Below, piece by piece: positions 3,701-64,000 of a DNA stretch of 64,000 nt. Position 1 is the first letter of the stretch, and each line of letters opens with the position of its first letter. Below the pieces are notes generated by a model. That model was not told where the DNA came from. It saw nothing but the letters and a program-made list of their open reading frames with translations, and did not search any database. Made by a program: the position numbers and the translations under genes. Origin of the DNA: Meghimatium bilineatum (Eukaryota; Mollusca; Gastropoda; Stylommatophora; Philomycidae); the NCBI GenBank assembly GCA_034231615.1, contig CM067317.1, positions 21,247,477 through 21,311,476 on the forward strand, in the 5' to 3' direction.

Positions 3701-5231
3701 CAAACTCCGAACGAGAAGAAGAAGATATTTTATTCCTTTGATATTGTCACATGACATGCTCAATTGATTTTGTATTGAAGACACCTCGTAACCGACACAA
3801 GTGACTGGCTGTGTTCTTCTACTGAGCAGTGGATGTCTGTAACCATATCACTAGTATGCCAGCTGTATGAGAGAACTGGTTCCCTTACTACACGCTGGTC
3901 ACCACCAACCTCAAAGCTAACTACGATCAAATTTGCTTTATCTTTTTGCAGCTGTCTGTTTTGCTATCAGTGCTATGTCGTCTACTACGTCTTTTCAGAC
4001 TGCCCTGTTGTTGTTTGCTATCCATGATCAACTTGGCAAAATATTAGCCAGTTTAATAACCTGGCACAGCAGGGAAACAACAATGATCTTCATACATAAT
4101 ACTGGAGATAGAGAGCTGTGGAGAACCATGATCGCCTATGCCAGCCGGCATGGCACCTAATGATGATGAAATGTGAAACAGAAGTTAAAAGGAGAATAGG
4201 AGTGGCTAAAAGTTCTTTCAATGACATAAGGAAAATATTAACATCTAAATAAATTACAAACAGGCTAAAAATAAGAAATTAGAAGACAGCATTGATGCCT
4301 TTGAGATGTCGATAGGGAGAATATCATGGAAAGAAGAAAACAAAGAAGAGGTTCTCTAACACCACTTAATATGAAGAAAGAATTATTAAAGGAAATAAAG
4401 ATCAAACAAAATATTTTGGACACATTAAAAGACAAGACACCATGCTGAAAAATTTACTTCGGGGTAAAGTCGAAGTGAGGCAAGCAAGAGGTAGACAGAT
4501 ACAAGTGGGAGAGTGACATCACAATATGGACAGGTTGCAGTCTAGCAGAGTGCATCACCAAAACAGGAGACGGGATGTTGGAGGTCTGTTGCAGCCAACC
4601 TTCGTTACTGAGGCGGCATTTGATAATGATGATAATCATTTGTTGTTGAGGAACAATTCTTCTTCAGCGTTCATTCTCAAACTCCCACTGGATCTCTCTT
4701 GTAGCAGTACAATGCTCCTACTAGATATCCAGCAGGGTATAGTCTAGAGAATGGAAATGCGTTGCGTCACCGTTTTATTTGCCCCCAATGGCCTGACACA
4801 TCCATCTTCTGCTGTAATGTTTGTTTTTAAAGTTATTAAAAATTTGCTTTAGTTGTAAATAGAAGATTGTTAATTCATTTATATGTATTGTGTCTTTCAC
4901 AGGCCTTATTCTTCCAAATGGAAACATCAACTGGGAATGTCCCTGTTTGGGTGGAATGGCTAGTGGACCTTGTGGTGTAGAATTTCGCAATGCTTTTACC
5001 TGTTTCCATCATAGCAAAGCAGATCCAAAGGGTTCAGATTGTTTTGAAGCATTTCTCTGCATGCAGGAATGTATGGGCAACTTTCCAGAACTGTACCCAG
5101 CATCAAAAGCCTCAATGTCAGATGAACTTGGTCAACTGTCTTCAGGCCAGGAAGGCATGGGTTTGGAGGAGGTTGGGGGTGAAGATGCAAAAAGTGTGCC
5201 AGAACCTTTGAAAACAAAACGAACATCCTGA
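738..5231 (+). CDS. CHCHD4: CHCHD4 / MIA40, mitochondrial intermembrane-space import oxidoreductase
   Basis: Three exons (738-759, 3087-3182, 4903-5231) join in frame through GT-AG introns to give 447 coding bases, 148 residues. The protein starts [14 protein letters not shown], close to the vertebrate start MSYCRQEGKDRIIF, and continues [11 protein letters not shown]. The redox CPC motif is at residues 52-54. The twin CX9C pairs are C63-C73 and C86-C96, with an extra Cys at 92. MIA40 uses the CPC cysteines to oxidise incoming small Cys-rich proteins in the mitochondrial intermembrane space and passes electrons to ALR/Erv1. The human protein has 142 residues, so the length is normal. The C-terminal tail (about 105-148) is acidic and poorly conserved, as in the family. 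The start has G at -3. Neighbours show no functional link. Identity is very secure, since all motif cysteines are present. Confidence 0.97.
760..1900. other. First part of CHCHD4 intron 1, no feature seen
   Basis: The stretch is AT-rich intron. Short open frames at 1402-1725 (+) and 1675-1896 (-) show no domain or exon-like borders, so I treat them as chance. Confidence 0.5.
1960..2245 (-). mobile_element. LINE 3' end, RNase H/knuckle type, subgroup II
   Basis: Read on the minus strand this carries the C-terminal coding remnant and 3' UTR of a LINE. It contains the phrases for [14 protein letters not shown] and ends in ACATG...GTGAAC followed by AAAGAAGAA. A sister copy in the other orientation is at 55000-55270. 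It is 5'-truncated and degenerate. Confidence 0.7.
2560..2715 (+). mobile_element. SINE I fragment (distal part)
   Basis: The segment reads like the distal half of the SINE I family: ...CTATGGGAT..., TTATGACATGCATGG, then CACAGTATTGCTATT and a TTTTGGGCTCTTG end. Compare the full copies at 22961-23245 and 47427-47700. Confidence 0.6.
3087..3182 (+). CDS. CHCHD4: CHCHD4 exon 2 (residues 8-39)
   Basis: A long T-run and TTTGCAG acceptor precede the exon, and GTAAATG follows it. It encodes the N-terminal segment [17 protein letters not shown], typical of animal MIA40. A LINE has inserted only 28 bases beyond the donor, on the same strand, and leaves the reading frame open into the intron. Confidence 0.95.
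3220..3726 (+). mobile_element. 5'-truncated LINE I insertion with TSD and (GAA)n tail
   Basis: About 507 bases are flanked by the 9-base direct repeat ATTTTATTC (3211-3219 and 3727-3735). The insert encodes the end of an RNase H domain ([19 protein letters not shown]) and a C-terminal Cys/His knuckle ([17 protein letters not shown]). It ends GAACGA(GAA)3. RNase H plus a terminal knuckle is typical of I-group non-LTR elements. It sits in CHCHD4 intron 2 on the sense strand and is relatively intact, with an open frame to 3652. Confidence 0.9.
3790..4035 (-). repeat. Dispersed repeat related to the 41.2 kb minisatellite founder
   Basis: The reverse complement matches 41140-41290: a GGTGACCAGC segment, CCAGTTCTCTC, then CATACTAGTGATATGGTTACAG. 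The same motif became the 31-base repeat unit at 41261. The family is not recognised. Confidence 0.6.
4040..4640 (+). mobile_element. Two adjoining RTE/CR1-like LINE 3' ends
   Basis: The first ends with a [13 protein letters not shown]-like tail and a TGATGATGA run (to about 4170). A second, more decayed 3' region follows, with [14 protein letters not shown] (about 4510-4560) and an ending in AATGATGATAATC. Phrases of this kind are the usual last residues of RTE/CR1-like LINEs in invertebrates. Another copy of the second type lies at 55925-56060 (-). Confidence 0.65.
4657..4815 (+). mobile_element. SINE II copy
   Basis: As written on this strand it begins CTTCTTCAGCGTTCATTC, has the quasi-palindrome CTGGATCTCTC...TCCTACTAGATATCCAGCAGG, and ends CCAATGGCCTGACACATCC. 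The true 3' end, the (GAA)n tail, is on the left, so the element lies in minus orientation. It sits in CHCHD4 intron 2. Confidence 0.75.
4903..5231 (+). CDS. CHCHD4: CHCHD4 exon 3 (CPC and twin CX9C core, stop)
   Basis: The acceptor TTTCACAG precedes GC-CTT, which completes Gly40. The exon carries the entire catalytic CPC and both CX9C helices, an acidic Gly/Glu-rich tail, and a TGA stop at 5229-5231. Confidence 0.97.
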
Positions 5232-10639: not shown

Positions 10640-11315
10640 TCATCATCCCTCCTGAGACCAGTCTTTCTTGTATACCATGGCGACACATCTGGCCTGTGAA
10701 CAAGATCAACCATCATTCGCCTGGGGACAGACAATAGATCAATCGTGTCATTCCTAATGGCGTAGGCGATCATTTTTCTCCACGACTCCGCCTCTTGTGT
10801 TGTCAATAAGCTCAGTTGGTGAACTTCTACCATTCCATAATACTACTCCATCTAGCAGCTTCTCTCTTTGTCGTCCCTTATCTCTTCTCCCCTTGATCTT
10901 TCCAGTGGTTATTAAGTGTTCAAGCTGTGTTCTTCTCAGCACATGCCATAGACATATTGACTGTCTGCCCATAATGTTTGATATGATTGATCTTTTTACA
11001 TCAGCATCAATGAGAACATCTGCATTATTTTTCTTAGCTGCCCATTGTATTTTTATCAGAAACATCTCTGTAGCCTCTAGTTCGTTTTGAATTTTTTTGT
11101 TTACAGTCCATGCTTCACATCCATAAAAAAAATTTGCTTTAATATAACATCTCAGCACTCGAATTAGAGTCTGCATTGATAGTGTTTCATTGCACAAAAT
11201 GGTTCTAATTTTTTGCAATGCTGATTTGGCTTGTGCTGTATGGCACTTGATCTCACTTGAGAATCTACCTTCCGATGTTAACAGAGTGCCAAGATATTTC
11301 ACTTTTGCAACTTGT
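10640..11315 (-). mobile_element. LINE B, reverse-transcriptase C-terminal region
   Basis: An open frame at 10754-11302 (-) reads KYLGTLLTSEGRF, then LRCYIKANFFYGCEAWT and ending GRQREKLLDGVV. This is the thumb and connection part of an RTE/CR1-like LINE. Upstream sequence continues at 11570-11625 beyond a nested short element (11330-11559). The left boundary of the tandem triplication cuts this LINE at 11316. Confidence 0.8.
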
Positions 11316-11329
11316 GTTCAATTTTGTGT

Positions 11330-11559
11330 CTATGTGTCATAGCCATTTGTGGCATATTATCTGTCGGTAATCTGGAAGCGCGTTAAAACCACTTGATCTG
11401 CTGTCTTTTGATAAAGCCAGAGGCAGACCATGTAAAAGATGAATCATATAAGCTACAGGAACACGCTTACAAACAGCGCACAAGGCCATCTTCAGAGAAC
11501 TCTTCCACCCCTGACGCCGCAAGGCAAACACGGGCCACATCGTATAGATAGATAGATAG
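11330..11559 (-). mobile_element. Short element with (TAGA)n end and 10-base TSD
   Basis: About 230 bases lie between direct repeats AATTTTGTGT (11320-11329 and 11560-11569), with a TAGATAGATAGATAGA run at the right edge. It interrupts LINE B. Its core (CGTCAGG, GGAAGAGTTCTCTGAAGATG on the minus strand) recurs at 12962-13015 (+) and 56392-56450 (+). It is a SINE-like non-autonomous element of unknown source. Copies also lie in units 2 and 3. Confidence 0.75.
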
Positions 11560-11634
11560 AATTTTGTGTTATTAATCATTAGGTTGCATCTTTTGCCAGC
11601 TATTCTCCTAGCTGGGGTTAACATAACCAGATAC

Positions 11635-12860
11635 AGCCATGTGACGTATTCCTTCCAGTATGATGTTTTCCCAATGAACTCTCAGAACTCATATCTGTCT
11701 TGGGCGATGTGGCTTTCATTTTCCAGCGATGTATTCATGTTATCTTTAATGACGTTAGTCCATCGTCTTCTTGGTTTGCCCTTTCTCCTATTCCCAGGCA
11801 TTCTTCCTTCCATTATTTGTCTTTCTAAATAGTTGTGTCTCTTTATATGACCAAACAGGCGTAGTTTTTTTTATGTTGTTATTTTTGTTTAATAACCAAC
11901 ACTCTGGCATCTACAATGTGTTTATAATATCTGAGTTTCTCTTTTTGTCCATCCATGATATTCTAATTATCTTTCTGTAGCATTTCATCTCGAAGGCGTT
12001 AATCTTCTTTGAAGCTGTTTTACTTAGGGTCCATGTTTCACAGCCGTATGTTGTAACCGGAAAAATAAAAGTTCGTAACATTAGCAATTTCGTCTCTATT
12101 TTGTTGTTTTTCCATAAGTTTTTCAACCGTGTTATTTTGCAATATGCCATTGCCAATTTCTCCTGCACCGTTGATGTTTGCTCCTACGTATTCAAATTTA
12201 TCCACACATTCTATCTCTGTATTGTCTATTCTGATTTGTTGGTTGTTGTGTTATTATATCTGTTGACATGATTTATTTTTTTGCGTGTTTAAATACAAGT
12301 GTTGGGATTCGCTATATTTCTTTGTGTTCTTGATTAGTTATTCCAATACCTTTATATCATTTGAAAGAAGCACTGTCGTCTGCATAGTGTAGTTCAGGGA
12401 ATTTCGAATATACGGATGTTGTCAGCGTTGTGTATGTCTTCTCTCACATTCCTCATTATACTTTCTGCGTAGAGTGTTCATCCCTGCCTTACTTCACTCT
12501 GTACCTCAAACCACTCTGAGATATCGCCCTCTATCTTCACTGCAGCCTTTTGATCTTGGTAATGTTCTTCTATTAGATAAATCAGATATCTTGGGAAACC
12601 CATGCTGTTCATTATCTCACATAGTTTCTGGTATTGGACGCAGTCGAACGCTTTTGTGTAATCTATGAAGCACATGTGCAGGTCAGGTGAAAATTCCCTA
12701 CATTTTTCTATGATCAATCTCATGATAAGGATGTGATCTCTTGTTCCTATGCCCGATCTGAAGCCGGCCTTGTTTCGTTTATCTCCATCTCAAATTTACC
12801 AGATACAGTACAAAGAGGAAGCAGTTTACCATTTCCTGATGTATCTCTTCTCATCAGCAA
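11635..12860 (-). mobile_element. LINE A, reverse-transcriptase fragment
   Basis: Minus-strand frames carry the RT finger/palm phrase CFIDYTKAFDCVQ (12478-12723) and the C-terminal phrase TTYGCETWTLSKTASKKINA (11911-12168). The 3' end near 11635 reads ...GGAATACGTCACATGG. Sister copies: 32185-33265 (+) and 63661-64000 (-). RTE/CR1-like, broken by several frame changes. Confidence 0.85.
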
Positions 12861-12899
12861 ACTTGATGTCCCACCGACATTCTACTCATGACCTTAGTG

Positions 12900-13528
12900 T
12901 GTTTATGTGATGTTTTCTGTTCTTTTATTTTGAATTATATCTATTTATACACTATCTCCTGCAGCGTCAGGTGTAGAGGAGTTTTCTGGAGATGGCCTTC
13001 CTGTGTGTAGTTTGCAATCTTGTTCATATGGATAATTTTAATTATTTTATTAAATTCTTGTTTTGAATTAAGTGAATTCACACCAAAAATACTTTAAATC
13101 TAAATTCGATCTTTAAAAGAAAAGTGCATATAATGCTTAAAATTTAAGGTTCATCACAAGCTTTAGTGAAAGGTGTATAGTGAATAGTTATATAATATAC
13201 TAAAGTAGAAAGTATACAATTTAGTTGCAGTAAAGGTGTATACAGAAAATATGAAGATACATTTCGATCTAAATGTAATGAAATAATTATAATATGTATT
13301 CTGAAGCATACATTTCTACATATATGTATTTTAGATGTTTCAATAGCGGTGAAACTTTACGTCAATGAGTTCTTTATTTAGTTAGGATTTATTTCCTTTT
13401 AATAATTTATTGAAGATTCTTGCTATTATAAATTAGGTATGAGGGAAGAAAAATCGCTGCCGAAATCACACTCTAAATATGTGAAGAATGTACACAATTA
13501 TCTTAAAATACGAAAAATCAAGAAAGCA
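12900..13528. other. AT-rich spacer in the tandem unit
   Basis: Apart from the short repeat echo at 12962-13015 (see the TAGA element), I see no coding or repeat structure. The sequence is very AT-rich with no long frames. It is identical in the other two units. Confidence 0.5.
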
Positions 13529-13541
13529 GAAAGGGCACCCT

Positions 13542-13740
13542 TCTTCTTCTTCAGCGTTCGCTCTCAAATAAACACAACGAATATTTCGTGTGATTTCCGC
13601 CAGGGAGCGTGACGTACGTTGTGCTGCAAGTTCCACAGTAAAACTGTGATTATTTGCACCCCGGTTGGCCACTTGTGGTCAGGACGTCCGAGGTCCAGCT
13701 CATACGTTTTCGTCATTCCTTTATTTTGGGTTTTGTCCCT
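13542..13740 (-). mobile_element. SINE III copy with 13-base TSD
   Basis: 199 bases lie between direct repeats GAAAGGGCACCCT (13529-13541 and 13741-13753). On the minus strand the body contains GCTGGACCTCGGACGTCC, GTGGCCAACCGGGGTG, CTTGCAGCACAACGTACG, and the end GAGCGAACGCTGAAGAAGAA. A second, diverged copy is at 28308-28490 (+). The perfect TSD indicates a recent insertion that predates the triplication. Confidence 0.85.
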
Positions 13741-13947
13741 GAAAGGGCACCCTCTAAACAAATAATTTCAAGAAACAATAACAGACTTCTAAGTCCAAAC
13801 CACATATTTATAGCAAGAGAACCATGTACGTAATATGCTTTAGAACATAGAATCATTAGAACATAATATTAATATCTGGGCGATTTATCTCCTGAACCAA
13901 GGACACTCAACCAAAAACCTACACAAATATTCCCTGAAATATCAAAC

Positions 13948-14331
13948 ATGAACTCCAAGATCACTCACACAGTAACAGAACAAAGATATTTAGTACTTCA
14001 AAAGTTACACGCTCAATGTCGCAAAAATATCTGGACGCATGTGTACACAGAATTATATGTAACAAAAGCAACAACCAGTGACGGCACTCAAATATGCATC
14101 ATGTTTCTAGACGACACCACATACAAAAAACCACAGGAGTACAATTTTCACATGTCAGGACAGAAGCAAGTGTCATACTCACAACTGTTCAAACACTTTA
14201 CAACCGAGAGTTTAGGCACACCGTGGATGGGGCACGCTGAGGATACTGTTCGACAAATAGGCCTATGTGCACCAGAAAGCATGAATCCAGATGAGGAATG
14301 GGTATGGATGTTTGTCCCAAAGGTTTTATAA
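13948..14331 (+). CDS. Unidentified open frame (127 aa) in tandem unit
   Basis: A 127-residue frame, MNSKITHTVTEQ to WVWMFVPKVL, repeats unchanged at 17863-18246 and 21779-22162. It is mixed in composition, with GQKQVSYSQLFKHF and PESMNPDEEW segments, and has no signal peptide, membrane span or motif I recognise. Other open frames with protein-like composition follow on the same strand (14291-14593, 14686-14913). Composition differs from the AT-rich spacer before it. It may be a relic of a larger mobile or foreign gene, or an exon of an unknown host gene. I cannot name the family and do not claim it is expressed. Confidence 0.35.
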   Translation: MNSKITHTVTEQRYLVLQKLHAQCRKNIWTHVYTELYVTKATTSDGTQICIMFLDDTTYKKPQEYNFHMSGQKQVSYSQLFKHFTTESLGTPWMGHAEDTVRQIGLCAPESMNPDEEWVWMFVPKVL

Positions 14332-15127
14332 AAGACATTTATGGCTGCCATTACACTCCATTTTTTTTGTTGGGGGAGGGGGGGGGTTCAGCAGGGAGCA
14401 TACCACTGTGATTGTTGACACAGAGGTCAAGGTACTCATCTCCGAATATGTTGATGACACAGATGTTGTGATTTACACACGTGTCGATCATCCGCTCCCA
14501 ACGGTGCGCATAGACATTTACCGCCATGTCACATGGAAAAATAACTTACACAATTACAAAATCAAGTTGGGCTTTCGCCGCAATAACAAGTAGTCTAACG
14601 ATTGAGGTGTTTACCGTAACAACGTCCCAAACTGGCTGGAATCACAAACATATCATAACCTCATGCAGGCCTGCATATTGAGTGTATGATCTATACAGTC
14701 AAAGCAAGTAAGTGCGTAAGTTATCATTGGAGAGGGTATCACTGCGCAAACTCATTTTTATCTTCGTTCCCGTACACGAGGGTTTGGAGGAAAATGAGCG
14801 AGCCATGTTGGCTGATTATATTTCTAAATTCTGCTTGGTCAATCTATGACCAGAGCAGACATGCTCAACACCCTAGGAGAGTCTGCGTGATTGAAGAATA
14901 TTGTGGTCAATGAACATGAGTCAGTATCAAGAATGCGTTAATTGGGAGCGAGGATCTGCGTAGCACAGAGAACAACTCATGATAATTTCAAAAAGAACAC
15001 TCAACCAATACAGAGCAAGAATCATCAACCGCTTTACCCTGAGAGATTTACTAAAACGGAGATCTGAGAACCTATGAAAATTTCCAATGTGGGAAGAAGA
15101 TAATCACCGTACCTAAACCTAATACAT

Positions 15128-15231
15128 TCTCTTCTTCTGCGTTCGTTCTCAAACTCCTGCAGATTAGCAGGATGTAGTCCGGAGAACGGAATGCGTTGTG
15201 TCATGGTTTACAGCATTGCTGCGATATCTGC
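15128..15231 (+). mobile_element. Truncated SINE I at the tandem junction
   Basis: CTTCTTCTGCGTTCG, GCAGATTAGCAGGATGTAGT and CATGGTTTACAGCATTGCTG are followed by GATATCTGCG, where SINE identity stops and LINE B sequence begins. The same cut recurs at 19043-19146. Confidence 0.9.
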
Positions 15232-18200
15232 GTTCAATTTTGTGTCTATGTGTCATAGCCATTTGTGGCATATTATCTGTCGGTAATCTGGAAGCGCGTT
15301 AAAACCACTTGATCTGCTGTCTTTTGATAAAGCCAGAGGCAGACCATGTAAAAGATGAATCATATAAGCTACAGGAACACGCTTACAAACAGCGCACAAG
15401 GCCATCTTCAGAGAACTCTTCCACCCCTGACGCCGCAAGGCAAACACGGGCCACATCGTATAGATAGATAGATAGAATTTTGTGTTATTAATCATTAGGT
15501 TGCATCTTTTGCCAGCTATTCTCCTAGCTGGGGTTAACATAACCAGATACAGCCATGTGACGTATTCCTTCCAGTATGATGTTTTCCCAATGAACTCTCA
15601 GAACTCATATCTGTCTTGGGCGATGTGGCTTTCATTTTCCAGCGATGTATTCATGTTATCTTTAATGACGTTAGTCCATCGTCTTCTTGGTTTGCCCTTT
15701 CTCCTATTCCCAGGCATTCTTCCTTCCATTATTTGTCTTTCTAAATAGTTGTGTCTCTTTATATGACCAAACAGGCGTAGTTTTTTTTATGTTGTTATTT
15801 TTGTTTAATAACCAACACTCTGGCATCTACAATGTGTTTATAATATCTGAGTTTCTCTTTTTGTCCATCCATGATATTCTAATTATCTTTCTGTAGCATT
15901 TCATCTCGAAGGCGTTAATCTTCTTTGAAGCTGTTTTACTTAGGGTCCATGTTTCACAGCCGTATGTTGTACCGGAAAAATAAAAGTTCGTAACATTAGC
16001 AATTTCGTCTCTATTTTGTTGTTTTTCCATAAGTTTTTCAACCGTGTTATTTTGCAATATGCCATTGCCAATTTCTCCTGCACCGTTGATGTTTGCTCCT
16101 ACGTATTCAAATTTATCCACACATTCTATCTCTGTATTGTCTATTCTGATTTGTTGGTTGTTGTGTTATTATATCTGTTGACATGATTTATTTTTTTGCG
16201 TGTTTAAATACAAGTGTTGGGATTCGCTATATTTCTTTGTGTTCTTGATTAGTTATTCCAATACCTTTATATCATTTGAAAGAAGCACTGTCGTCTGCAT
16301 AGTGTAGTTCAGGGAATTTCGAATATACGGATGTTGTCAGCGTTGTGTATGTCTTCTCTCACATTCCTCATTATACTTTCTGCGTAGAGTGTTCATCCCT
16401 GCCTTACTTCACTCTGTACCTCAAACCACTCTGAGATATCGCCCTCTATCTTCACTGCAGCCTTTTGATCTTGGTAATGTTCTTCTATTAGATAAATCAG
16501 ATATCTTGGGAAACCCATGCTGTTCATTATCTCACATAGTTTCTGGTATTGGACGCAGTCGAACGCTTTTGTGTAATCTATGAAGCACATGTGCAGGTCA
16601 GGTGAAAATTCCCTACATTTTTCTATGATCAATCTCATGATAAGGATGTGATCTCTTGTTCCTATGCCCGATCTGAAGCCGGCCTTGTTTCGTTTATCTC
16701 CATCTCAAATTTACCAGATACAGTACAAAGAGGAAGCAGTTTACCATTTCCTGATGTATCTCTTCTCATCAGCAAACTTGATGTCCCACCGACATTCTAC
16801 TCATGACCTTAGTGTGTTTATGTGATGTTTTCTGTTCTTTTATTTTGAATTATATCTATTTATACACTATCTCCTGCAGCGTCAGGTGTAGAGGAGTTTT
16901 CTGGAGATGGCCTTCCTGTGTGTAGTTTGCAATCTTGTTCATATGGATAATTTTAATTATTTTATTAAATTCTTGTTTTGAATTAAGTGAATTCACACCA
17001 AAAATACTTTAAATCTAAATTCGATCTTTAAAAGAAAAGTGCATATAATGCTTAAAATTTAAGGTTCATCACAAGCTTTAGTGAAAGGTGTATAGTGAAT
17101 AGTTATATAATATACTAAAGTAGAAAGTATACAATTTAGTTGCAGTAAAGGTGTATACAGAAAATATGAAGATACATTTCGATCTAAATGTAATGAAATA
17201 ATTATAATATGTATTCTGAAGCATACATTTCTACATATATGTATTTTAGATGTTTCAATAGCGGTGAAACTTTACGTCAATGAGTTCTTTATTTAGTTAG
17301 GATTTATTTCCTTTTAATAATTTATTGAAGATTCTTGCTATTATAAATTAGGTATGAGGGAAGAAAAATCGCTGCCGAAATCACACTCTAAATATGTGAA
17401 GAATGTACACAATTATCTTAAAATACGAAAAATCAAGAAAGCAGAAAGGGCACCCTTCTTCTTCTTCAGCGTTCGCTCTCAAATAAACACAACGAATATT
17501 TCGTGTGATTTCCGCCAGGGAGCGTGACGTACGTTGTGCTGCAAGTTCCACAGTAAAACTGTGATTATTTGCACCCCGGTTGGCCACTTGTGGTCAGGAC
17601 GTCCGAGGTCCAGCTCATACGTTTTCGTCATTCCTTTATTTTGGGTTTTGTCCCTGAAAGGGCACCCTCTAAACAAATAATTTCAAGAAACAATAACAGA
17701 CTTCTAAGTCCAAACCACATATTTATAGCAAGAGAACCATGTACGTAATATGCTTTAGAACATAGAATCATTAGAACATAATATTAATATCTGGGCGATT
17801 TATCTCCTGAACCAAGGACACTCAACCAAAAACCTACACAAATATTCCCTGAAATATCAAACATGAACTCCAAGATCACTCACACAGTAACAGAACAAAG
17901 ATATTTAGTACTTCAAAAGTTACACGCTCAATGTCGCAAAAATATCTGGACGCATGTGTACACAGAATTATATGTAACAAAAGCAACAACCAGTGACGGC
18001 ACTCAAATATGCATCATGTTTCTAGACGACACCACATACAAAAAACCACAGGAGTACAATTTTCACATGTCAGGACAGAAGCAAGTGTCATACTCACAAC
18101 TGTTCAAACACTTTACAACCGAGAGTTTAGGCACACCGTGGATGGGGCACGCTGAGGATACTGTTCGACAAATAGGCCTATGTGCACCAGAAAGCATGAA

Positions 18201-19146
18201 TCCAGATGAGGAATGGGTATGGATGTTTGTCCCAAAGGTTTTATAAAAGACATTTATGGCTGCCATTACACTCCATTTTTTTTGTTGGGGGAGGGGGGGG
18301 GTTCAGCAGGGAGCATACCACTGTGATTGTTGACACAGAGGTCAAGGTACTCATCTCCGAATATGTTGATGACACAGATGTTGTGATTTACACACGTGTC
18401 GATCATCCGCTCCCAACGGTGCGCATAGACATTTACCGCCATGTCACATGGAAAAATAACTTACACAATTACAAAATCAAGTTGGGCTTTCGCCGCAATA
18501 ACAAGTAGTCTAACGATTGAGGTGTTTACCGTAACAACGTCCCAAACTGGCTGGAATCACAAACATATCATAACCTCATGCAGGCCTGCATATTGAGTGT
18601 ATGATCTATACAGTCAAAGCAAGTAAGTGCGTAAGTTATCATTGGAGAGGGTATCACTGCGCAAACTCATTTTTATCTTCGTTCCCGTACACGAGGGTTT
18701 GGAGGAAAATGAGCGAGCCATGTTGGCTGATTATATTTCTAAATTCTGCTTGGTCAATCTATGACCAGAGCAGACATGCTCAACACCCTAGGAGAGTCTG
18801 CGTGATTGAAGAATATTGTGGTCAATGAACATGAGTCAGTATCAAGAATGCGTTAATTGGGAGCGAGGATCTGCGTAGCACAGAGAACAACTCATGATAA
18901 TTTCAAAAAGAACACTCAACCAATACAGAGCAAGAATCATCAACCGCTTTACCCTGAGAGATTTACTAAAACGGAGATCTGAGAACCTATGAAAATTTCC
19001 AATGTGGGAAGAAGATAATCACCGTACCTAAACCTAATACATTCTCTTCTTCTGCGTTCGTTCTCAAACTCCTGCAGATTAGCAGGATGTAGTCCGGAGA
19101 ACGGAATGCGTTGTGTCATGGTTTACAGCATTGCTGCGATATCTGC
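15232..19146. repeat. Tandem unit, copy 2
   Basis: Same contents as copy 1: TAGA element 15246-15475, LINE A 15551-16775 (-), SINE III 17457-17655 (-), open frame 17863-18246 (+), truncated SINE I 19043-19146. One base shorter than copy 1. Confidence 0.95.
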
Positions 19147-22100
19147 GTTCAATTTTGTGTCTATGTGTCATAGCCATTTGTGGCATATTATCTGTCGGTA
19201 ATCTGGAAGCGCGTTAAAACCACTTGATCTGCTGTCTTTTGATAAAGCCAGAGGCAGACCATGTAAAAGATGAATCATATAAGCTACAGGAACACGCTTA
19301 CAAACAGCGCACAAGGCCATCTTCAGAGAACTCTTCCACCCCTGACGCCGCAAGGCAAACACGGGCCACATCGTATAGATAGATAGATAGAATTTTGTGT
19401 TATTAATCATTAGGTTGCATCTTTTGCCAGCTATTCTCCTAGCTGGGGTTAACATAACCAGATACAGCCATGTGACGTATTCCTTCCAGTATGATGTTTT
19501 CCCAATGAACTCTCAGAACTCATATCTGTCTTGGGCGATGTGGCTTTCATTTTCCAGCGATGTATTCATGTTATCTTTAATGACGTTAGTCCATCGTCTT
19601 CTTGGTTTGCCCTTTCTCCTATTCCCAGGCATTCTTCCTTCCATTATTTGTCTTTCTAAATAGTTGTGTCTCTTTATATGACCAAACAGGCGTAGTTTTT
19701 TTTATGTTGTTATTTTTGTTTAATAACCAACACTCTGGCATCTACAATGTGTTTATAATATCTGAGTTTCTCTTTTTGTCCATCCATGATATTCTAATTA
19801 TCTTTCTGTAGCATTTCATCTCGAAGGCGTTAATCTTCTTTGAAGCTGTTTTACTTAGGGTCCATGTTTCACAGCCGTATGTTGTAACCGGAAAAATAAA
19901 AGTTCGTAACATTAGCAATTTCGTCTCTATTTTGTTGTTTTTCCATAAGTTTTTCAACCGTGTTATTTTGCAATATGCCATTGCCAATTTCTCCTGCACC
20001 GTTGATGTTTGCTCCTACGTATTCAAATTTATCCACACATTCTATCTCTGTATTGTCTATTCTGATTTGTTGGTTGTTGTGTTATTATATCTGTTGACAT
20101 GATTTATTTTTTTGCGTGTTTAAATACAAGTGTTGGGATTCGCTATATTTCTTTGTGTTCTTGATTAGTTATTCCAATACCTTTATATCATTTGAAAGAA
20201 GCACTGTCGTCTGCATAGTGTAGTTCAGGGAATTTCGAATATACGGATGTTGTCAGCGTTGTGTATGTCTTCTCTCACATTCCTCATTATACTTTCTGCG
20301 TAGAGTGTTCATCCCTGCCTTACTTCACTCTGTACCTCAAACCACTCTGAGATATCGCCCTCTATCTTCACTGCAGCCTTTTGATCTTGGTAATGTTCTT
20401 CTATTAGATAAATCAGATATCTTGGGAAACCCATGCTGTTCATTATCTCACATAGTTTCTGGTATTGGACGCAGTCGAACGCTTTTGTGTAATCTATGAA
20501 GCACATGTGCAGGTCAGGTGAAAATTCCCTACATTTTTCTATGATCAATCTCATGATAAGGATGTGATCTCTTGTTCCTATGCCCGATCTGAAGCCGGCC
20601 TTGTTTCGTTTATCTCCATCTCAAATTTACCAGATACAGTACAAAGAGGAAGCAGTTTACCATTTCCTGATGTATCTCTTCTCATCAGCAAACTTGATGT
20701 CCCACCGACATTCTACTCATGACCTTAGTGTGTTTATGTGATGTTTTCTGTTCTTTTATTTTGAATTATATCTATTTATACACTATCTCCTGCAGCGTCA
20801 GGTGTAGAGGAGTTTTCTGGAGATGGCCTTCCTGTGTGTAGTTTGCAATCTTGTTCATATGGATAATTTTAATTATTTTATTAAATTCTTGTTTTGAATT
20901 AAGTGAATTCACACCAAAAATACTTTAAATCTAAATTCGATCTTTAAAAGAAAAGTGCATATAATGCTTAAAATTTAAGGTTCATCACAAGCTTTAGTGA
21001 AAGGTGTATAGTGAATAGTTATATAATATACTAAAGTAGAAAGTATACAATTTAGTTGCAGTAAAGGTGTATACAGAAAATATGAAGATACATTTCGATC
21101 TAAATGTAATGAAATAATTATAATATGTATTCTGAAGCATACATTTCTACATATATGTATTTTAGATGTTTCAATAGCGGTGAAACTTTACGTCAATGAG
21201 TTCTTTATTTAGTTAGGATTTATTTCCTTTTAATAATTTATTGAAGATTCTTGCTATTATAAATTAGGTATGAGGGAAGAAAAATCGCTGCCGAAATCAC
21301 ACTCTAAATATGTGAAGAATGTACACAATTATCTTAAAATACGAAAAATCAAGAAAGCAGAAAGGGCACCCTTCTTCTTCTTCAGCGTTCGCTCTCAAAT
21401 AAACACAACGAATATTTCGTGTGATTTCCGCCAGGGAGCGTGACGTACGTTGTGCTGCAAGTTCCACAGTAAAACTGTGATTATTTGCACCCCGGTTGGC
21501 CACTTGTGGTCAGGACGTCCGAGGTCCAGCTCATACGTTTTCGTCATTCCTTTATTTTGGGTTTTGTCCCTGAAAGGGCACCCTCTAAACAAATAATTTC
21601 AAGAAACAATAACAGACTTCTAAGTCCAAACCACATATTTATAGCAAGAGAACCATGTACGTAATATGCTTTAGAACATAGAATCATTAGAACATAATAT
21701 TAATATCTGGGCGATTTATCTCCTGAACCAAGGACACTCAACCAAAAACCTACACAAATATTCCCTGAAATATCAAACATGAACTCCAAGATCACTCACA
21801 CAGTAACAGAACAAAGATATTTAGTACTTCAAAAGTTACACGCTCAATGTCGCAAAAATATCTGGACGCATGTGTACACAGAATTATATGTAACAAAAGC
21901 AACAACCAGTGACGGCACTCAAATATGCATCATGTTTCTAGACGACACCACATACAAAAAACCACAGGAGTACAATTTTCACATGTCAGGACAGAAGCAA
22001 GTGTCATACTCACAACTGTTCAAACACTTTACAACCGAGAGTTTAGGCACACCGTGGATGGGGCACGCTGAGGATACTGTTCGACAAATAGGCCTATGTG

Positions 22101-23064
22101 CACCAGAAAGCATGAATCCAGATGAGGAATGGGTATGGATGTTTGTCCCAAAGGTTTTATAAAAGACATTTATGGCTGCCATTACACTCCATTTTTTTTG
22201 TTGGGGGAGGGGGGGGGGGTTCAGCAGGGAGCATACCACTGTGATTGTTGACACAGAGGTCAAGGTACTCATCTCCGAATATGTTGATGACACAGATGTT
22301 GTGATTTACACACGTGTCGATCATCCGCTCCCAACGGTGCGCATAGACATTTACCGCCATGTCACATGGAAAAATAACTTACACAATTACAAAATCAAGT
22401 TGGGCTTTCGCCGCAATAACAAGTAGTCTAACGATTGAGGTGTTTACCGTAACAACGTCCCAAACTGGCTGGAATCACAAACATATCATAACCTCATGCA
22501 GGCCTGCATATTGAGTGTATGATCTATACAGTCAAAGCAAGTAAGTGCGTAAGTTATCATTGGAGAGGGTATCACTGCGCAAACTCATTTTTATCTTCGT
22601 TCCCGTACACGAGGGTTTGGAGGAAAATGAGCGAGCCATGTTGGCTGATTATATTTCTAAATTCTGCTTGGTCAATCTATGACCAGAGCAGACATGCTCA
22701 ACACCCTAGGAGAGTCTGCGTGATTGAAGAATATTGTGGTCAATGAACATGAGTCAGTATCAAGAATGCGTTAATTGGGAGCGAGGATCTGCGTAGCACA
22801 GAGAACAACTCATGATAATTTCAAAAAGAACACTCAACCAATACAGAGCAAGAATCATCAACCGCTTTACCCTGAGAGATTTACTAAAACGGAGATCTGA
22901 GAACCTATGAAAATTTCCAATGTGGGAAGAAGATAATCACCGTACCTAAACCTAATACATTCTCTTCTTCTGCGTTCGTTCTCAAACTCCTGCAGATTAG
23001 CAGGATGTAGTCCGGAGAACGGAATGCGTTGTGTCATGGTTTACAGCATTGCTGCGATATCTGC
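19147..23064. repeat. Tandem unit, copy 3
   Basis: Same contents again: TAGA element 19161-19390, LINE A 19466-20691 (-), SINE III 21373-21571 (-), open frame 21779-22162 (+). The SINE I at its right end continues intact past 23064. A longer G-run at about 22209-22219 adds two bases. Confidence 0.95.
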
Positions 23065-23245
23065 GCCTTTCGGTCTGACACATCCGACTTCAGCATAGCT
23101 TTGTGTCACTGACCCTATATGGGATGAGACAGCCAACTACATCCCATAGCATCCTTAGTCGCCTTTTACGACATGTGTGGAAGGTAAACAGTGTTGCTAT
23201 TCTTTGCTCCCCTTTCGGACCCCCGGCAACACAAGGGCGATACAT
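22961..23245 (+). mobile_element. Full-length SINE I at the right end of the array
   Basis: It has the same head as the truncated junction copies but continues past 23064: CTTTCGGTCTGACACATCC, GACCCTATATGGGATGAGAC, CGCCTTTTACGACATGTGTG, GCTATTCTTTGCTCCCCTTT and GGCAACACAAGGGC. It proves where the duplication breakpoint lies inside the SINE. Confidence 0.9.
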
Positions 23246-23584: not shown

Positions 23585-23639
23585 ATGGCGAACTTTTGTG
23601 AAGCTGGTGCTTTGGTTATTTTAATATTATTTTCTATTG
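23585..23639 (+). CDS. Secreted protein exon 1 (signal peptide)
   Basis: It encodes MANFCEAGALVILILFSI plus the first base of a Gly codon; the donor GTGAGT is at 23640. The long hydrophobic run fits a signal peptide ending near the exon border. Confidence 0.8.
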
Positions 23640-26600
23640 GTGAGTACTGTGAGTTATTTAGACATATTAGAGCGATGTATTTATAATTGTGGCACATTTT
23701 AATTGTATGTAACACCAACAATTTTATTACCATGTGTACTACGATGAGTAGCATAAAATCAAAGTAAGTATGGAAATTGTTAACAATAGGATATAGTAAT
23801 TTACTACTTTTGGAAATTAGGATCATGCATGCGTGTAGTAGGCCACTATACTTTATACAGTTGCAATGTTATTATATATTTATATATTAAATATTACCAC
23901 TTATTGTAATAAACCTTTGAAATAAAAAGTTTATAACAAGTTACCTACGTTTCTTCATTAAAATAAAAGTTATAAATAATTAATCTTTTGTGATTATAAA
24001 ATAAATAACGTTTTCTGTATGCAGCATGTAACATGACCTAATTATGCAAGCACGTGCTGATGCTCTGTGCGCATTAGATACTGCGCATTGTTTTTGATTT
24101 AGAGGTCATACCAATCTAAATTTTTGTTCGTGGATAAAAATATAGTTTTATGACGTATCAACATTTGTCTTTATCGAATAATGAAATATTAAATAATGCA
24201 TGCGTCATTATTCCATTTTTCGAAAATTGCATGAAGGAGGATTGGCCTATATGTATTTCAATGTTCTTTGAAATTTAATTTAAGTTTATTGAAAATCGTT
24301 AAAAAAAATAATCGAATTCCCACAAATATCACACGTGGGCCATGAATAGAAGCATGAAAACGAATAAAGAAGGTATACAGAAGTGGACTGAACAATCGGG
24401 CATCCAGAAAAAATATATTTAAATAGGGTCGTTTCTACATTACAATAATATGTGTGATAAGTAAGGGGGATTAAAGTTTATACATTACACTTATATGTGT
24501 GTTAAGTAGGGGATTAAAGCCTCTTTGAGCTGGGATACGCATTTTTCACCATTACTCTGCAGTCTTATGGTTATGTAATTGGCTGTTGACATTTTAAAGT
24601 ATCTGGATATTATTGCCTGCTACTATAAAGTTAGAATTCTTATAGTTATAATTAGAGCTCACATAGTGGATGCGGTCAGTGATACACGCTGAGAAACATC
24701 TCTTTTCGTCCGCCTTATGGCCAATTCCTAGTACATGTGCTAAACGTTATTTTCCGATTGGGTGGGGGGGGGGGGTGTCTTGGCCTTGCTATGCGCAACA
24801 GGGATTCTGTTTGCGACTGTTAGATATATATTTTTCTTGTATGCTACTCGGGGTCTCATGGGCACTCTAGCTCACTAATAAAATAATATAAACGAGCATA
24901 TACCTACATGAGGGACATACCTGCAATAACAGCCAACAAACAATAATAGGCCCCTACATAGTACATAGATAGGACTGTGGATAATACGCACGCCTTGGGT
25001 CATCACGTGATTGTAGAGAAAGCCATAGGGCCTACTGTTTCATTGTGGTAGAAGTAGAATCGTTACATTTGGGGAGGGGGGGGGGTTGTCATTCTTTTTA
25101 CTAGCTTATGTGTTTTCCGTAGAGCTAAATCTAATGTTTTCCATAGAGTTCAATCTGATGTTCCGTTTCCCTTAATAAAGGGAGGAGGCTTTCAACCCCT
25201 ACCTGCATGCAGCTTTGCCACTCGTGCACATGAATTAAGTATAGGGGCCAACTTCAAGAAACTATATGAGTCAAAGCTGACATGTATGCTATTAACTTAA
25301 TGAAAGTAGAAATATCTATAAGATTCATGATCTCTACTCGGGAATAAAAAGGGCATTTAACATGATACAAAATTAACGGTCACGATCAGGGCCGTAGATA
25401 TATTTTCACTTCTTCTCGTTCACAGTTCGACATGTCTACACGGCAAATCCGGTTTTCTTAATACATGTTGCTGTATTTGAAAGCTGTGGATATCCGTCTC
25501 TGTGGGCCAGTGTTCTTCTCTTAACTGGTTTAGTGTATTGCAGTCTTGTAGGATATGTTCAGCGGCATGTGCTGTCTGCCCAGATGGACATCAGGGGAGA
25601 TATAACCAGTTTTAGTCTATTTAAGTGACTGTTTAGTCTGTTGTGTCCTTTTCTGAGGCGTAAGATAATAAACTTTCTCAGCTCTGTTGAGATAGTGATC
25701 TTTTGGATGGCCGACTTTCACATGTTTTCACTAAGGATGGGGTTTTATCTATATAAAAAAAGAGGACAACAGTTTGGTTTCGTATTTCCCACTTTTTGCC
25801 CCGAAATTTGATGGTCCTTTTGTGAAAAATCGTTAATTGCGCGATTTTACTTACCACCTCTTAGCTGAATTCCTAGTTTTTAAAGTCTTGTTCTGATTAG
25901 TTAAGGGAAGGGTTTGAACCCTCCACCAAACTCACTCCTTATCTATGGGACTGGTCACGAAATTTATCAACAAAAAACAATTACAAAAGATGACGATTTC
26001 CACCCCCCCCCCCTTTGCGACTAAGGTGCTGGAATGGAAATTAGGTACTTTCTCCTAAAAACGATCGTTTAAGAAATGGAACAACTTTCATTTGTAAAAA
26101 GAACACCTTCCTGAGCAGTCGTATCTATGGTCTTGTTTGTTGCCTATGCAGAAGGTGTAGTTTATTGGGTCTGATCTCTTATATAGGCCTATATTGATCT
26201 CTTCCGCCGGAACAAGTCTCGATTATTTAATAAGCACAGTAAGCGACTATCATAAATATCGCCAGGTTTTTCCCAATATTTTATCCTCATCCCCCACTCA
26301 CCGGTCAAGAATTAAAGGACCATCCACCAACTGTCAAAAACGACATTATTTATTTCACATTATAAAAGGAAAAAATGTGTCAAATTGAAACAATTATTTG
26401 GTGTTAAAAACATTAGGGCCTATTGGTGACGTCGATTTTTGGTAAACCCCCTCCCCAATGTCAACATTTTCAGACCCCCCCCCCGCCTCCATAACTGCTA
26501 ATTTATGGACAGCCCCTAAGAACTTGTTTGTTGTTTGAAGCATCAATTGGTATTAATCCAGTTGTGAACTGGAATGTATAGCATGCATTCACATTTTTCT

Positions 26601-29600
26601 TATGGTTGTTTCCAAATTTCATCGGATCTCTCTTGTTGTAGATCCATATTCTTACTGGATCTCTCTTGTTCTAGGACAATATTCCTACTGGATCTCTCTT
26701 GTTCTAGGACAATATTCCTACTGGGTCTCTCTTGTAGTAGGACAATGTTCCTTATAGATTTTTAGCAAGATGTACGAGTAGTTCAGATAATAGCGTTGTG
26801 TCGCTTTTTTCTTACATACGTGATCCAACACATCCAACTTCGGATAATATGCCTACATTAAATTACTGTGAATTAGCATAAAATGTCATTATTTAGGAGC
26901 TGGTATGTTGGAACTATAGGTGTCAATGCTTAAGCCCTTTACCTTATCTTCACGAGCTCATGAGTTTAATGCAAGCCCATGATCTGACAACTATGGAGGT
27001 TATTACTGGAAGCTACAGAGTTACCGTATGTGCTTCTTCTTCTTCGATTGTTATGAAACTCGTGCAGATCAGTAGGATATAATCAAGAGAACAGAAGGCC
27101 TAACACATTTGATTTCGGCATGACTTCGGGGTCACTTTGACCCTATATGGGATGGGACAACCAACTCCACCCCAAAACCTTCTTTGTCACCTCTTACGCC
27201 ATGCTTGACAAGTAATAGTGTTGCTATTAATTACTCCTCTTTCGGGGTGCAAAGGGAACACATTGCTCTCGGCGGACCCAGGGTAAACAGATAACCAAGA
27301 TATCAAATGTACCTCCTCCCGGTGCACCCTGGAAACAGAAATATAGCGGCTCGTGCTGATTCTGGCCAAGTCATTTGGGGATCGTGTCCGAGAATGTGGA
27401 GGTAGCAGATGGAAAGAGATTTGAATGCATAAGAGACATACAATATCTCTGACAGCACCAACACATGCAGCTTTGTCGACACAGTGACGCTAGTCAGTCC
27501 AGTCCGAATATTGGAGGGGCGGCCAATGAAAAAGGCACGTAAAGGTAGATGCATGGTGAGAGAAGAATAAATTTCATACTGAATACAATAAAAGGGCAGA
27601 ACAGCACCAGAGGGCAGCGCCAACTGCATAAAGAAAGTGACAACTTTCCACGGAAATTGGAACTACAAGCTATGTTAGCTCGAGACGAGCTTCTAGTTAC
27701 CTGTGATCCTTGTGGGTAGAGACCCAGACCCAATCATAGGTGCCCGGCAAAGCAAGAAGACCTTGCCTAACTCTAATGTCGAGCCTTCCTATACCGGAAA
27801 CGTGTTCGCGAAGAGAAAGGGTTCCATACCCAATGGGCTCATGCACAAAAGGGACAACGATTTTAGCCCTGGCCCAACTCTACTGTCAAGCTTTCCTATA
27901 ACGGAAATACACTTGCAGAGAGAAAGGGTTCATTACCCGATGGGCGCAGGCGCTATTGGGGCAAGGTCGATCAGCTTGAGAACGCATGGTGTGAGATTCG
28001 AACTTGGGCGAGGGGTTCACGATGTCGGTGAACGATACCTCGGCTAAGAAGGCGAAAGAGCCAGGGTCCAACTCTTCTGTTGAGTTCTTCCTCATACGGA
28101 ACCAGGCTCGCGGATGATAAACGATTCACTACCCAACGGGCACAGGCACAGTACCTCCAATTACACGAGGCAAGTTCATAGACGGTGGAACACCTCGTGC
28201 GAGATAGACGCGAACGAAAATCGTCTCGGCGAAGAGTCACCACACATCCGCGTGCCCGACGACAGATAGGCAGACTGTCACTGACTAGGGAAGCCTACTA
28301 CCCGAATTAAAGGCACGACGAAAGCGGATGTGCTGGACCTCGGACGTCCAGAGCACAGAGTGGCCAACCGAGGTGTCAATAACATAGTTTTACTGTTGAT
28401 CTTGCAGCACAACGTACTTTATGCTCCCCGACGGAAATCACACAATATATTCGTTGTAGTTATATGAGAGCGAACGCAGAAGAAGACTTCTTTCGAGCTC
28501 CAGAAACAGACGGGTTAGCTACATGTTATGAGTGGTACTCTCAGAAGCTGGCATGCCGAGATGTTGACACGGACGGAGTACATACGGGGAATACCAAAAA
28601 ATATTGAATCTTCAACACCATTTTAGTATTTCAAATGAAATTGTACCTCCTCTTATTCTTCTGCATGCAGAAGGTCTGAAGATCTCACAATTGACGTATC
28701 AGACTATCATTATGCAACAGTAAACTCTCAGTAGTTGATATGCCAATATTTTTGTGTACTCTTATGGAAGCCCCATAACATTTCATCTGTAGATTATATT
28801 TCTTTTTACTGCAAGCGGTAGTGCCTTGACTGTGGTCCTGTTGCCAACGTGTACAGGGTTCCCTGGTTATGAATAGGTGGCACACGAGGTGCAGTGAAAA
28901 ACAATTTCAGTGAATTGATGTGATACATTTCTGAGAGAGCCCTGTATGTTGCCAAAAATTTTGCCTGCATAATTAGAGATCACCCTTGGAGGGTGAGGAA
29001 TACATAGTTGGCTGCCCCATCCATATCTGGTGACCATGGCTCAGAACTGAGTTGTTATGGGCACTTTAAAGAGGAAAGGATGCTTGGTGTAAGCTGGCAA
29101 TCCCATCTCTGCATGTTACGATAAGGTAATAATGTCACAAAACTCATATAATTTGAGGAGACTTATTCTTATAACTTTGCACACCACTTCTTCTTCTTTG
29201 TTTGTTTTCAAACTCCTGCAGATGAGCAGGATATAGTCCTCAGAACGGAAAGCAGTGTGTCATGGTTTACAGCTTAGCTGTTACATCTGTATTTTTAGGC
29301 CTGACACATCCGACTTCAGCACGGATTCTGTGTCATTTTGAGATGGTACAGCCAACTCTATCACAAAACCTCCTTAATTGCCTCTTACAACATGCTTGGC
29401 ATGTGACAGTGTTGCTATTCTTCGTTCTCCTTTCAGGCTTTTGCAACACACGGACTATCACACTGCTGATAGTTGGAGTCTTCTGTGTACAAAAAATAAA
29501 GCTCTGGAAAAACTACTTTACTACACATAGGACGTAAGATATAATTTCTCATAATCCCTGGATTGAAACAACAATAACCCTCCTATTATTGATTTTGACC

Positions 29601-32600
29601 ACTTTCATGGTCAATCATTAACTTAATATCTGTCTCCTGTTTTTAAGACTCTTTTGGTCTTACTAGCTCTTCAGGCCAATCGCCACTACGAAACTATCAG
29701 TCTCTCCAGGTCAGAGCAGCCACTCTAAAATCACCTGATTTTTGCCAAAACCAAATAGGCTATCACCCTTGAACTGCTGGAGTTCCACATCACACTAACT
29801 TTCATCAACAATCAATGTCGAACTGAGTCTAGAAATGGCTGCCAGAACACACAGCGCTATCGAATGGTCATAAATTTGTAAACATTAATGTCTAATGTTT
29901 TATGGGATCCACTTCATTGGGGAACAAACTGGATCCACTTGCAATTTTAGAAGCTGAAAATCTGGCCTACATAGTGCCAATGAGTAATATAGACTAGAAT
30001 TTAAATGTCACTGTCATAAAAGTGGGGGGGGGGGGGGGGTGTTTGATTCAAGGAAAATAAAAGAATGCTATACTTGTATTACTATATAAAATATTTATAT
30101 GTATGTATATTGATAAAATAATGCTCTACTTGTATTACTATATAAAATATTTATATGTATGTATATTGTTTTATTTGTAGATGTCCATGATTGTTCAGCA
30201 AAATGTCCAGAAGACTACCGTTATAGAGTTGAAATGTGTGTCATGGAAGCACAAGTGGCACCCCAAGCTGGTGGGGGGTTACCACTCATTACCGACAGCA
30301 ACAAACTGGAGGAACTTTGTGTGTAAGTTTTAGTAGAAAAAGTTGTTCCTTAGCATATCATGATGTAGTATTCTGAGATATATTCTACGTCATGGCACAT
30401 CCATACTAGTCTGAGATATATTCTACGTCATGGCACATCCATACTAGTCTGAGATATATTCTATGTCATGGCACATCCATACTAGTCTGAGATATATTCT
30501 ACCTCATGGCACATCCATACTAGTCTGAGATATATTCTACCTCATGGCACATCCATACTAGTCTGAGATATATTCTACCTCATGGCACATCCATACTAGT
30601 CTGAGATATATTCTACCTCATGGCACATCCATACTAGTCTGAGATATATTCTACGTCATGGCACATCCATACTAGTCTGAGATATATTCTACCTCATGGC
30701 ACATCCATACTAGTCTGAGATATATTCTACCTCATAGCACATCCATACTAGTCTGAGATATATTCTAACTCACATCATTTCTTCTTCAGTGTTTATTCTC
30801 AGACTTCTGTTGTTCAACATAATGCAATCCATTGAATGGATTGCGCTGTCATGGTTTAGTTTAGTTGTGTTATCTGCACACATCCACTTTCAACATACCT
30901 TTAGACTCAAATTGACCTACTATGGGACAACCATCCCCACACCTCTTTAGTTATCTCTAGTAAATTTCATGGCAGGTTACAGTATTGCTACTCTTTACTG
31001 CTTTTTGAAGTCCAAACAATTCACAAGCAATCAGTAATATTATTCCTATGTCAATCTTGTTATTCCTACAGGAGAGGAATTCTTCAGAAATCTATAGACT
31101 GTCTTCGAGACATTTACGACAGATGTTCAAATAACATTACACAGAAACAGGAGTTGGATATGTTGTTCAGTGTTGAAGAGTGGAAACATGGACAAGCACT
31201 CTTGTGTGAAGATCTTAACCGTAAGTTAGGTAAAGGAAGTCATCACGACTTTCATATACCACAATCATTTGGTGTTTTTACTGACATGGAGCACTCTAAT
31301 ATACATCTTTTGCTTACAGTATGTGCTTTTCTTTGCCAATTTTGTTTGATGGTAATAATAAAATTGATGATTTTGTTGATGTTTACAGTATCACTTTGAA
31401 ATATAGAACATTTATTAGTTTGTATCACATTACCCACAGCTAATTAGTGGGTGGTGGGTATTGTCTACCAGCGAGCCACAGTGTGGTTACAAGGGTTGAA
31501 CTGCACACCGGACATACTTGGATAGCAGATGGTTCTGGTGGTGGAAGTCTAGAATACTCTAGCCCAGTAAGACAATTCATCAATGGGTAATACATCCAAA
31601 CAGAAAGCAATCCACGTTCAAAGAAGTTGGAGCATTACAGGTCCTTGTGGCGTGGAGTACCCTCTTAAACAGAGGAACACAGAAAGAAAAGTAATGTGTA
31701 TGCAGTTGCAGTCTTCTTCTTTTCCCTTTCAATTCCCTTTGAAACATAGAGTTGCAACTGTTGCTCTCCAACAATTTCTATGTTGTTCTGTCCTCTTCAT
31801 CTGAGCCCACAAGGTCCCAATTGATGTGTTCCTCAGTTTTCCAACTCACTTCTCTGTTATTAAGGGTGAAGCCAAAGTCTAATTATGTTGTCAGGTTTAT
31901 TTCTAAAGTGGGAAATGCTAAATGAGGTAGAACTGTAAAATACCTAACTATCAATAGTAAAAAATGAAAAACTAACAATAAAACATAGAATAAGGACAAT
32001 TTTCTATGTTGCAGTCCAACCGGGACCTTTTTCAAGCTACAAATAACAATAAAAAACACAAAACCATACAAATATTGACAACTAGAATGACTTTAACCTG
32101 TTTCTAAAAAAACAATTGAATACTAGAAAGCAAAATGGCAGAGGAAGTATATCTCGATTTTGTTTTACAAATAATTCAGTACTATCATCTGACCTGCACA
32201 TGTGCTTCATAGACTACTCAAAAGCATTAGACTGTGAACAATTCCAGAACTATGGGAGATAATGAACAAAATGGGTTGATGACTCATCTTATAGCAGAGT
32301 TTTACCAAGATAAAAAGCTGCAGTGAAGTTAGAGGGTGATCTCTCAGAGTGGTTTGAGACACAGAGAGGAGTAAGGCAGAGATGCACACTCTCCCCATAC
32401 CTGCTCAACATCTACGCTGAAAGTATAATGAGGAATGTGAGAGAAGACAAACAATACGGACTACCACATTTTAAACATCGGTGGTTTTGAAATCCCCAAC
32501 CTACGCTAAGCAGACAACACTGTGCTTCTTTCAAATGATATAAAGGGATTGGAATAACTAATCAAGGACACAAAGAAATACAGTGAATCACAAAATTTAT

Positions 32601-47426: not shown

Positions 47427-47700
47427 TTCTTCTTCTGCGTTCCTTCTTAAAGTCCTGCAGATTAGTAGGATGTAGTCCGGAGAACGGAATGCTATGTATC
47501 ATGGTTTACAGCATTGCTGATATCTGCGCCTTTTGGCCTGACACATCCAACTTCAGCATGGCTTTGGGTCACTGACCCTATATGGGATGGGACTGCCAAC
47601 TCCATCCCATAACCTCCTTAGTCGCCTTTTACGACATGCGTGGAAGGTAAACAGTGTTGCTATTCTTTGCTCCCCTTTCGGGCCCTGGCAACACAAGGGC
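47427..47700 (+). mobile_element. SINE I copy, full length
   Basis: CTTCTTCTTCTGCGTTCC, GCAGATTAGTAGGATGTAGT, CGGAGAACGGAATG, GACCCTATATGGGATGGGAC, CGCCTTTTACGACATGCGTG, TTTGCTCCCCTTTCGGGCCC and GGCAACACAAGGGC. It is close to the copy at 22961. Confidence 0.9.
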
Positions 47701-63660: not shown

Positions 63661-64000
63661 GTGTGTCATGTGACGTATTCCTTCCAGAACGTTGTTTTCC
63701 TAATGAACTCTCTGAACCTCTCTGTCTTGGGCGATGTGGCTTGCATTTTCTAGCGATGTATTCATGTTATCTTTAATGTCGTCAGTCCATCGTCTTCTTG
63801 GTCTGCCCCTTCTCCTCTCCCAGGTACTCTTCCCTCCATTATTTGTCTTTCTAAACAGTTATGTCTCTTTATATGACCAAACAGGCGTAGTTTTCTTTTT
63901 GTTATTGTGTTTAGTAACCAACACTCTGGAATATTCAGTGTGTTTATAATATCTGAGTGTCTGATTTTATCCTTCCATGATATTCTAAGTATCTTCCTGT
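63661..64000 (-). mobile_element. LINE A copy running off the window
   Basis: Closely parallels 11635-11980: TGTGACGTATTCCTTCCAG, GGGCGATGTGGCTTGCATTT, GTCCATCGTCTTCTTGG, TTATATGACCAAACAGGCGT and ACCAACACTCTGGAAT. Less decayed than 32185-33265. Confidence 0.85.

Follow-up and report, generated by a model that had tools for sequence, protein, structure and literature searches.

The 64,000-nucleotide window of Meghimatium bilineatum DNA analysed here contains a tandem array of three head-to-tail units of 3916, 3915 and 3918 bases (Table 1). On balance, we favour a real and recent duplication, formed in place by low-homology joining and followed by unequal exchange. A duplication is supported by the head-to-tail order, two identical junctions, an uncut parent at the right edge and zero substitutions among the units.

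Units of the array and their content

The three-unit arrangement given in the original prediction was recovered with exact order and lengths. BLASTN self-comparison of the window aligned 11313-19147 with 15229-23065 at 99.94% identity over 7838 columns (1 mismatch and 3 gap openings), and MAFFT alignment of the three units left three variable columns, all of them gaps, and no substitution. Two sites account for these columns, one reading AA in units 1 and 3 and A in unit 2, the other a tract of nine G that is extended to eleven by two G unique to unit 3. The claim that the copies differ only at an A-run and a G-run therefore held as far as the gap columns are concerned, but the 'A-run' turned out to be just AA versus A. 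No run in unit 1 is longer than G9, and the window contains other G tracts reaching 16 bases; at 24764, 30024, 60202 and 60516, where runs of 12-16 G were seen, the consensus may be unreliable. As the window is free of any N, the unit joins are not scaffold gaps.

Table 1. Features of the array and of its edges, with positions in the window
Feature	Position	Strand	Remarks
LINE A, C-terminal part of reading frame, outside array	10757-11317	-	reaches left border; plausible uncut parent
Unit 1	11317-15232	+	3916 bases
SINE-like insertion with GATA tail	11320-11569	.	between AATTTTGTGT copies 11320-11329 and 11560-11569; SINE is a label by sequence
LINE B fragment, reverse transcriptase remnant	11638-12723	-	aligned 11638-12690
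Second SINE-like insertion	13529-13753	.	between two GAAAGGGCACCCT copies; relative at 28300-28486 (85%)
152-codon open frame	13873-14331	+	ATG at 13948; repeated at 17788-18246 and 21704-22162
First unit-unit junction	15218-15246	+	cut SINE I joined to LINE A edge
Unit 2	15233-19147	+	3915 bases; one A fewer at about 15970
Second unit-unit junction	19133-19161	+	identical to first junction
Unit 3	19148-23065	+	3918 bases; extra GG at 22209-22210
SINE I	22963-23238	+	uncut parent at right edge; unit ends at base 103 of 276 aligned

The unit is largely transposon debris, consisting of LINE fragments, two SINE-like insertions and one open frame, together with an A+T-rich stretch and the initial 103 bases of the SINE I alignment. 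The ten-base duplication around the first SINE-like insertion starts three bases inside the array, and the second insertion is bounded by a 13-base duplication (13529-13541 and 13741-13753). Within the LINE B fragment, 12478-12723 matched RVT_1 in Pfam with an E-value of 0.0019, under the curated cut-off, and two further LINE B matches, at 32185-33261 and 63667-64000, end at the same 3' end. No recognised gene was found among the frames scanned, which cover part of the unit.

Amplification of a gene was considered and rejected, since the 152-codon frame is without recognised relatives and its length is little, and not clearly, above chance. This frame is the longest in the unit, counted from stop to stop; shuffling produced one of at least this length in 12 of 300 cases for the whole unit and in 6 of 300 for 13767-15130. 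Pfam had nothing for it up to E 1, PHROGs and the PDB each returned one weak match (E 0.091 and E 0.45, respectively), and a search of viral contigs led to one pattern-matching stretch and no confirmed relative. A single-sequence structure model of the frame was poor (mean pLDDT 37.9) and is uninformative either way. By eye, the stretch 3' of the frame recalls a decayed LINE reverse transcriptase with RNase H, which we do not claim: three pieces of this region searched in Pfam yielded no match to either domain and one chance-level match to another family (E 0.094). A phage or plasmid origin was likewise rejected, as searches of phages in distant mode and of plasmids in near mode only found no match, and neither a tRNA nor a known RNA at Rfam gathering scores was detected in the window.

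Several features were noted outside the array. About 520 bases to its right, at 23585-23641, a start codon is followed by MANFCEAGALVILILFSIG and a splice-donor-like GTGAGT, and a promoter may lie between the array and this start codon. Three minisatellites with units of 38, 31 and 57 bases (30372-30772, 41261-41573 and 42297-42783) comprise about 8 to 11 copies each with 96-98% matches, and a 190-base tandem repeat of two copies with 94% matches at 49366-49741 may have arisen like the array, only earlier and on a smaller scale. In Pfam, a frame at 4863-5228 matched a CHCH domain (E 0.0004, under the curated cut-off), and frames at 58399-58779 and 50351-50824 matched, above the cut-off, two parts of an RsmB/F-type methyltransferase. 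An open frame at 3056-3652 has an RNase H match (E 3.7e-06), and its other part, judged by eye, presumably resembles the start of a CHCHD4-type protein. Frames in several pieces, like the LINE and SINE copies, indicate a eukaryotic genome.

Junctions and outer edges

The join of GATATCTGCG to TTCAATTTTG is present in identical copies at both unit-unit borders. Allowing up to three mismatches, the junction 29-mer occurred twice in the window and in none of 100 shuffles, and the junction sequence found no match in viral contigs. A single base, G, is common to both breakpoints, in agreement with the predicted low-homology junction of at most one shared base, and the borders 11316-23064 and 11317-23065 are for this reason equivalent. 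When up to 20,000 random breakpoint pairs were drawn in the window, dropping those that start in the array, 54% shared no base and 28% shared one (82% with 0 or 1). The one-base overlap is thus what random breakpoints give, with no sign of a homology-driven origin. NAHR between flanking dispersed repeats was accordingly rejected for the first step, as long homology is missing at breakpoints with only one common base; their contexts also differ, the left one lying at a LINE edge and the right one in a SINE.

At the right outer edge the parental SINE I is uncut. It aligns unbroken through 23065 to a copy at 47428-47700 with 91.7% identity over 276 bases, and after masking of the array and the stretch up to 23700, eight of the 23 matches elsewhere in the window extended across the right border with 14 bases or more on either side, while the other 15 did not. 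A further SINE I copy at 56138-56235 ends no more than two bases from the right breakpoint, with ATATCTG followed by TTCATTT where the junction has ATATCTGCG followed by TTCAATTT. The DNA beyond this copy is unlike the remainder of SINE I, scoring 14 where 200 shuffles reached up to 23. Given the many truncated copies, one such stop near the breakpoint is unsurprising and we attribute it to chance, although SINE I may have a natural end here or be prone to breakage at this site.

The left edge is less clear-cut. The LINE A frame that reaches the border from outside aligns with LINE B (local score 99, maximum of 59 in 300 shuffles), the alignment beginning at the third LINE A residue from the border; LINE B was represented in this comparison by its unit 2 frame, in which loss of the A fuses two frames into one. 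Inside the unit, the frame beside the SINE-like insertion ends in CNLMINNTK, and to the eye this looks like the LINE B sequence immediately preceding that point. However, this putative continuation of LINE A is a chance-level match, as its score of 18 against LINE B over 40 residues was reached in 456 of 500 shuffles. The left border may therefore fall within LINE A, which is what a plain tandem duplication would predict, or it may coincide with an older LINE A edge, in which case the left edge could be an older join. Of the uncut parents expected on both flanks, the right one is thus shown, and LINE A is a plausible left one. Similarly, the proposed join of a cut SINE I to a cut LINE B was correct for SINE I, but the left breakpoint is at the end of the LINE A frame, 3 bases outside the target-site duplication of the SINE-like insertion, and LINE B starts about 320 bases further inside; the LINE labels of the original prediction may differ from ours. 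A search for LINE A relatives in bacterial and archaeal genomes gave 57 pattern-matching stretches and no confirmed one.

The edges also bear on transposition of a composite element or its insertion by rolling circle, which we regard as highly improbable. The transposon debris in the unit and a left edge whose ancestral state is only plausible would fit such an event, but parental sequence continues without a break across the right edge, and the unit stops within an older SINE. A target-site duplication around the array was not seen: its edges have one base in common, and the right side is continuous with SINE I.

Origin, age and copy number

For the favoured in-place duplication, we propose two steps. 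Breaks at the LINE A edge (11316/11317) and in SINE I, 3.9 kb apart, would have been end-joined between sister chromatids or homologues with at most one common base, resulting in two copies; alternatively, template switching or a low-homology restart of replication might have bridged the breaks. Unequal exchange through 3.9 kb of perfect homology would then have copied the junction and created the third unit, a step invoked because two independent end joinings would hardly repeat one junction. A single step might have sufficed if the locus was re-replicated, or if a circle reinserted where it had come from.

The zero substitutions agree with the earlier suggestion of very young or homogenised copies, although identity alone does not separate a recent origin from homogenisation. 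With substitution rates of 2.1e-9 to 7e-9, they translate into an upper bound of about 36,000 to 182,000 generations if the copies evolved without homogenisation, which would undo the bound as it assumes that the copies evolved apart. Tandem units of 3.9 kb are good substrates for homogenisation, and an older origin, with uniformity maintained through gene conversion or recurrent unequal exchange, is compatible with the identity as such. We nevertheless hold this to be quite unlikely, since a recent origin is the simpler explanation for zero substitutions with only three copies and the other tandem repeats listed in the window have at most 98% matches. There is a small chance that the array represents a newborn satellite of three units, open to expansion and polymorphic in copy number in the population: end joining would have turned transposon debris into a tandem repeat, which unequal exchange could expand.

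The doubt about copy number already raised in the original prediction is justified, and its attribution of the unit differences to sequencing noise is plausible. Both length changes in the array (two of two differences) contrast with four dispersed repeat pairs, in which gap openings made up nine of 95 differences. Pairs were retained at 85% identity or more, a length of 150 bases or more and a spacing of 3 kb or more (all others were dropped), and the gap share is rough and alignment-dependent, one pair having 4 or 7 gap openings according to the settings. Based on this rough share, a uniform mutation spectrum would yield two length changes out of two with a probability of about 1%, which favours consensus error; against this, a G9 tract also mutates by slippage in life. 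An assembly miscount, in which the genome carries one, two or more than three units and the assembler passed three times through a repeat loop, is therefore a serious if lesser possibility. Separate consensus polishing of each pass could leave zero substitutions and only length differences over three units, and many single reads are no longer than the 11.7 kb of the array. However, the exact and gapless junction, found twice, suggests that junction reads exist. Reads are the most likely source of so precise a join, which makes a real second copy, or else a circle, likely. If two haplotypes had been falsely duplicated, their copies would presumably differ in bases and in their joins. The count of three remains uncertain in both directions.

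The circle just mentioned would be an extrachromosomal, end-joined molecule of 3.9 kb, whose reads form a loop in the assembly graph that was unrolled into the chromosome. The same junction and intact chromosomal parents would be expected from it, compatible with the sequence, but it would have to be abundant enough to affect the assembly, and we consider it very unlikely.

Comparison with known systems

Ordinary segmental tandem duplications and copy-number variants arise in place and are arranged head to tail, with a low-homology junction and high identity. The array is like them in all of these traits, but has three units instead of two. If real, it offers a clean young tandem array with a readable junction and at least one readable parent, useful for studying how tandem repeats begin; if miscounted, it usefully illustrates the caution that long identical units call for in assemblies. 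Specialists would be surprised by neither outcome.

A parallel is provided by the CUP1 arrays of yeast, for which the published account describes tandem units of about 1.2 to 2 kb, junctions with at most 3 common bases, an origin by unequal non-homologous joining from a single-copy parent and changes in unit number by unequal crossovers (PMC4232551). Kilobase tandem units and one common base at the junction are shared by the array described here, whereas the CUP1 arrays contain a copper-resistance gene and were compared across 101 isolates (PMC4232551), and we are dealing with one assembly and no recognised gene. Near-perfect identity and an uncertain copy number also make the array similar to false or miscounted assembly duplications, a kind described in one account as contigs from divergent alleles that appear as duplicates (PMC11259980). 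Unlike such divergent-allele duplicates, the array is without base differences and contains the same join twice. Taken with these systems, the array looks like an ordinary kind of event and not like a new kind of element.
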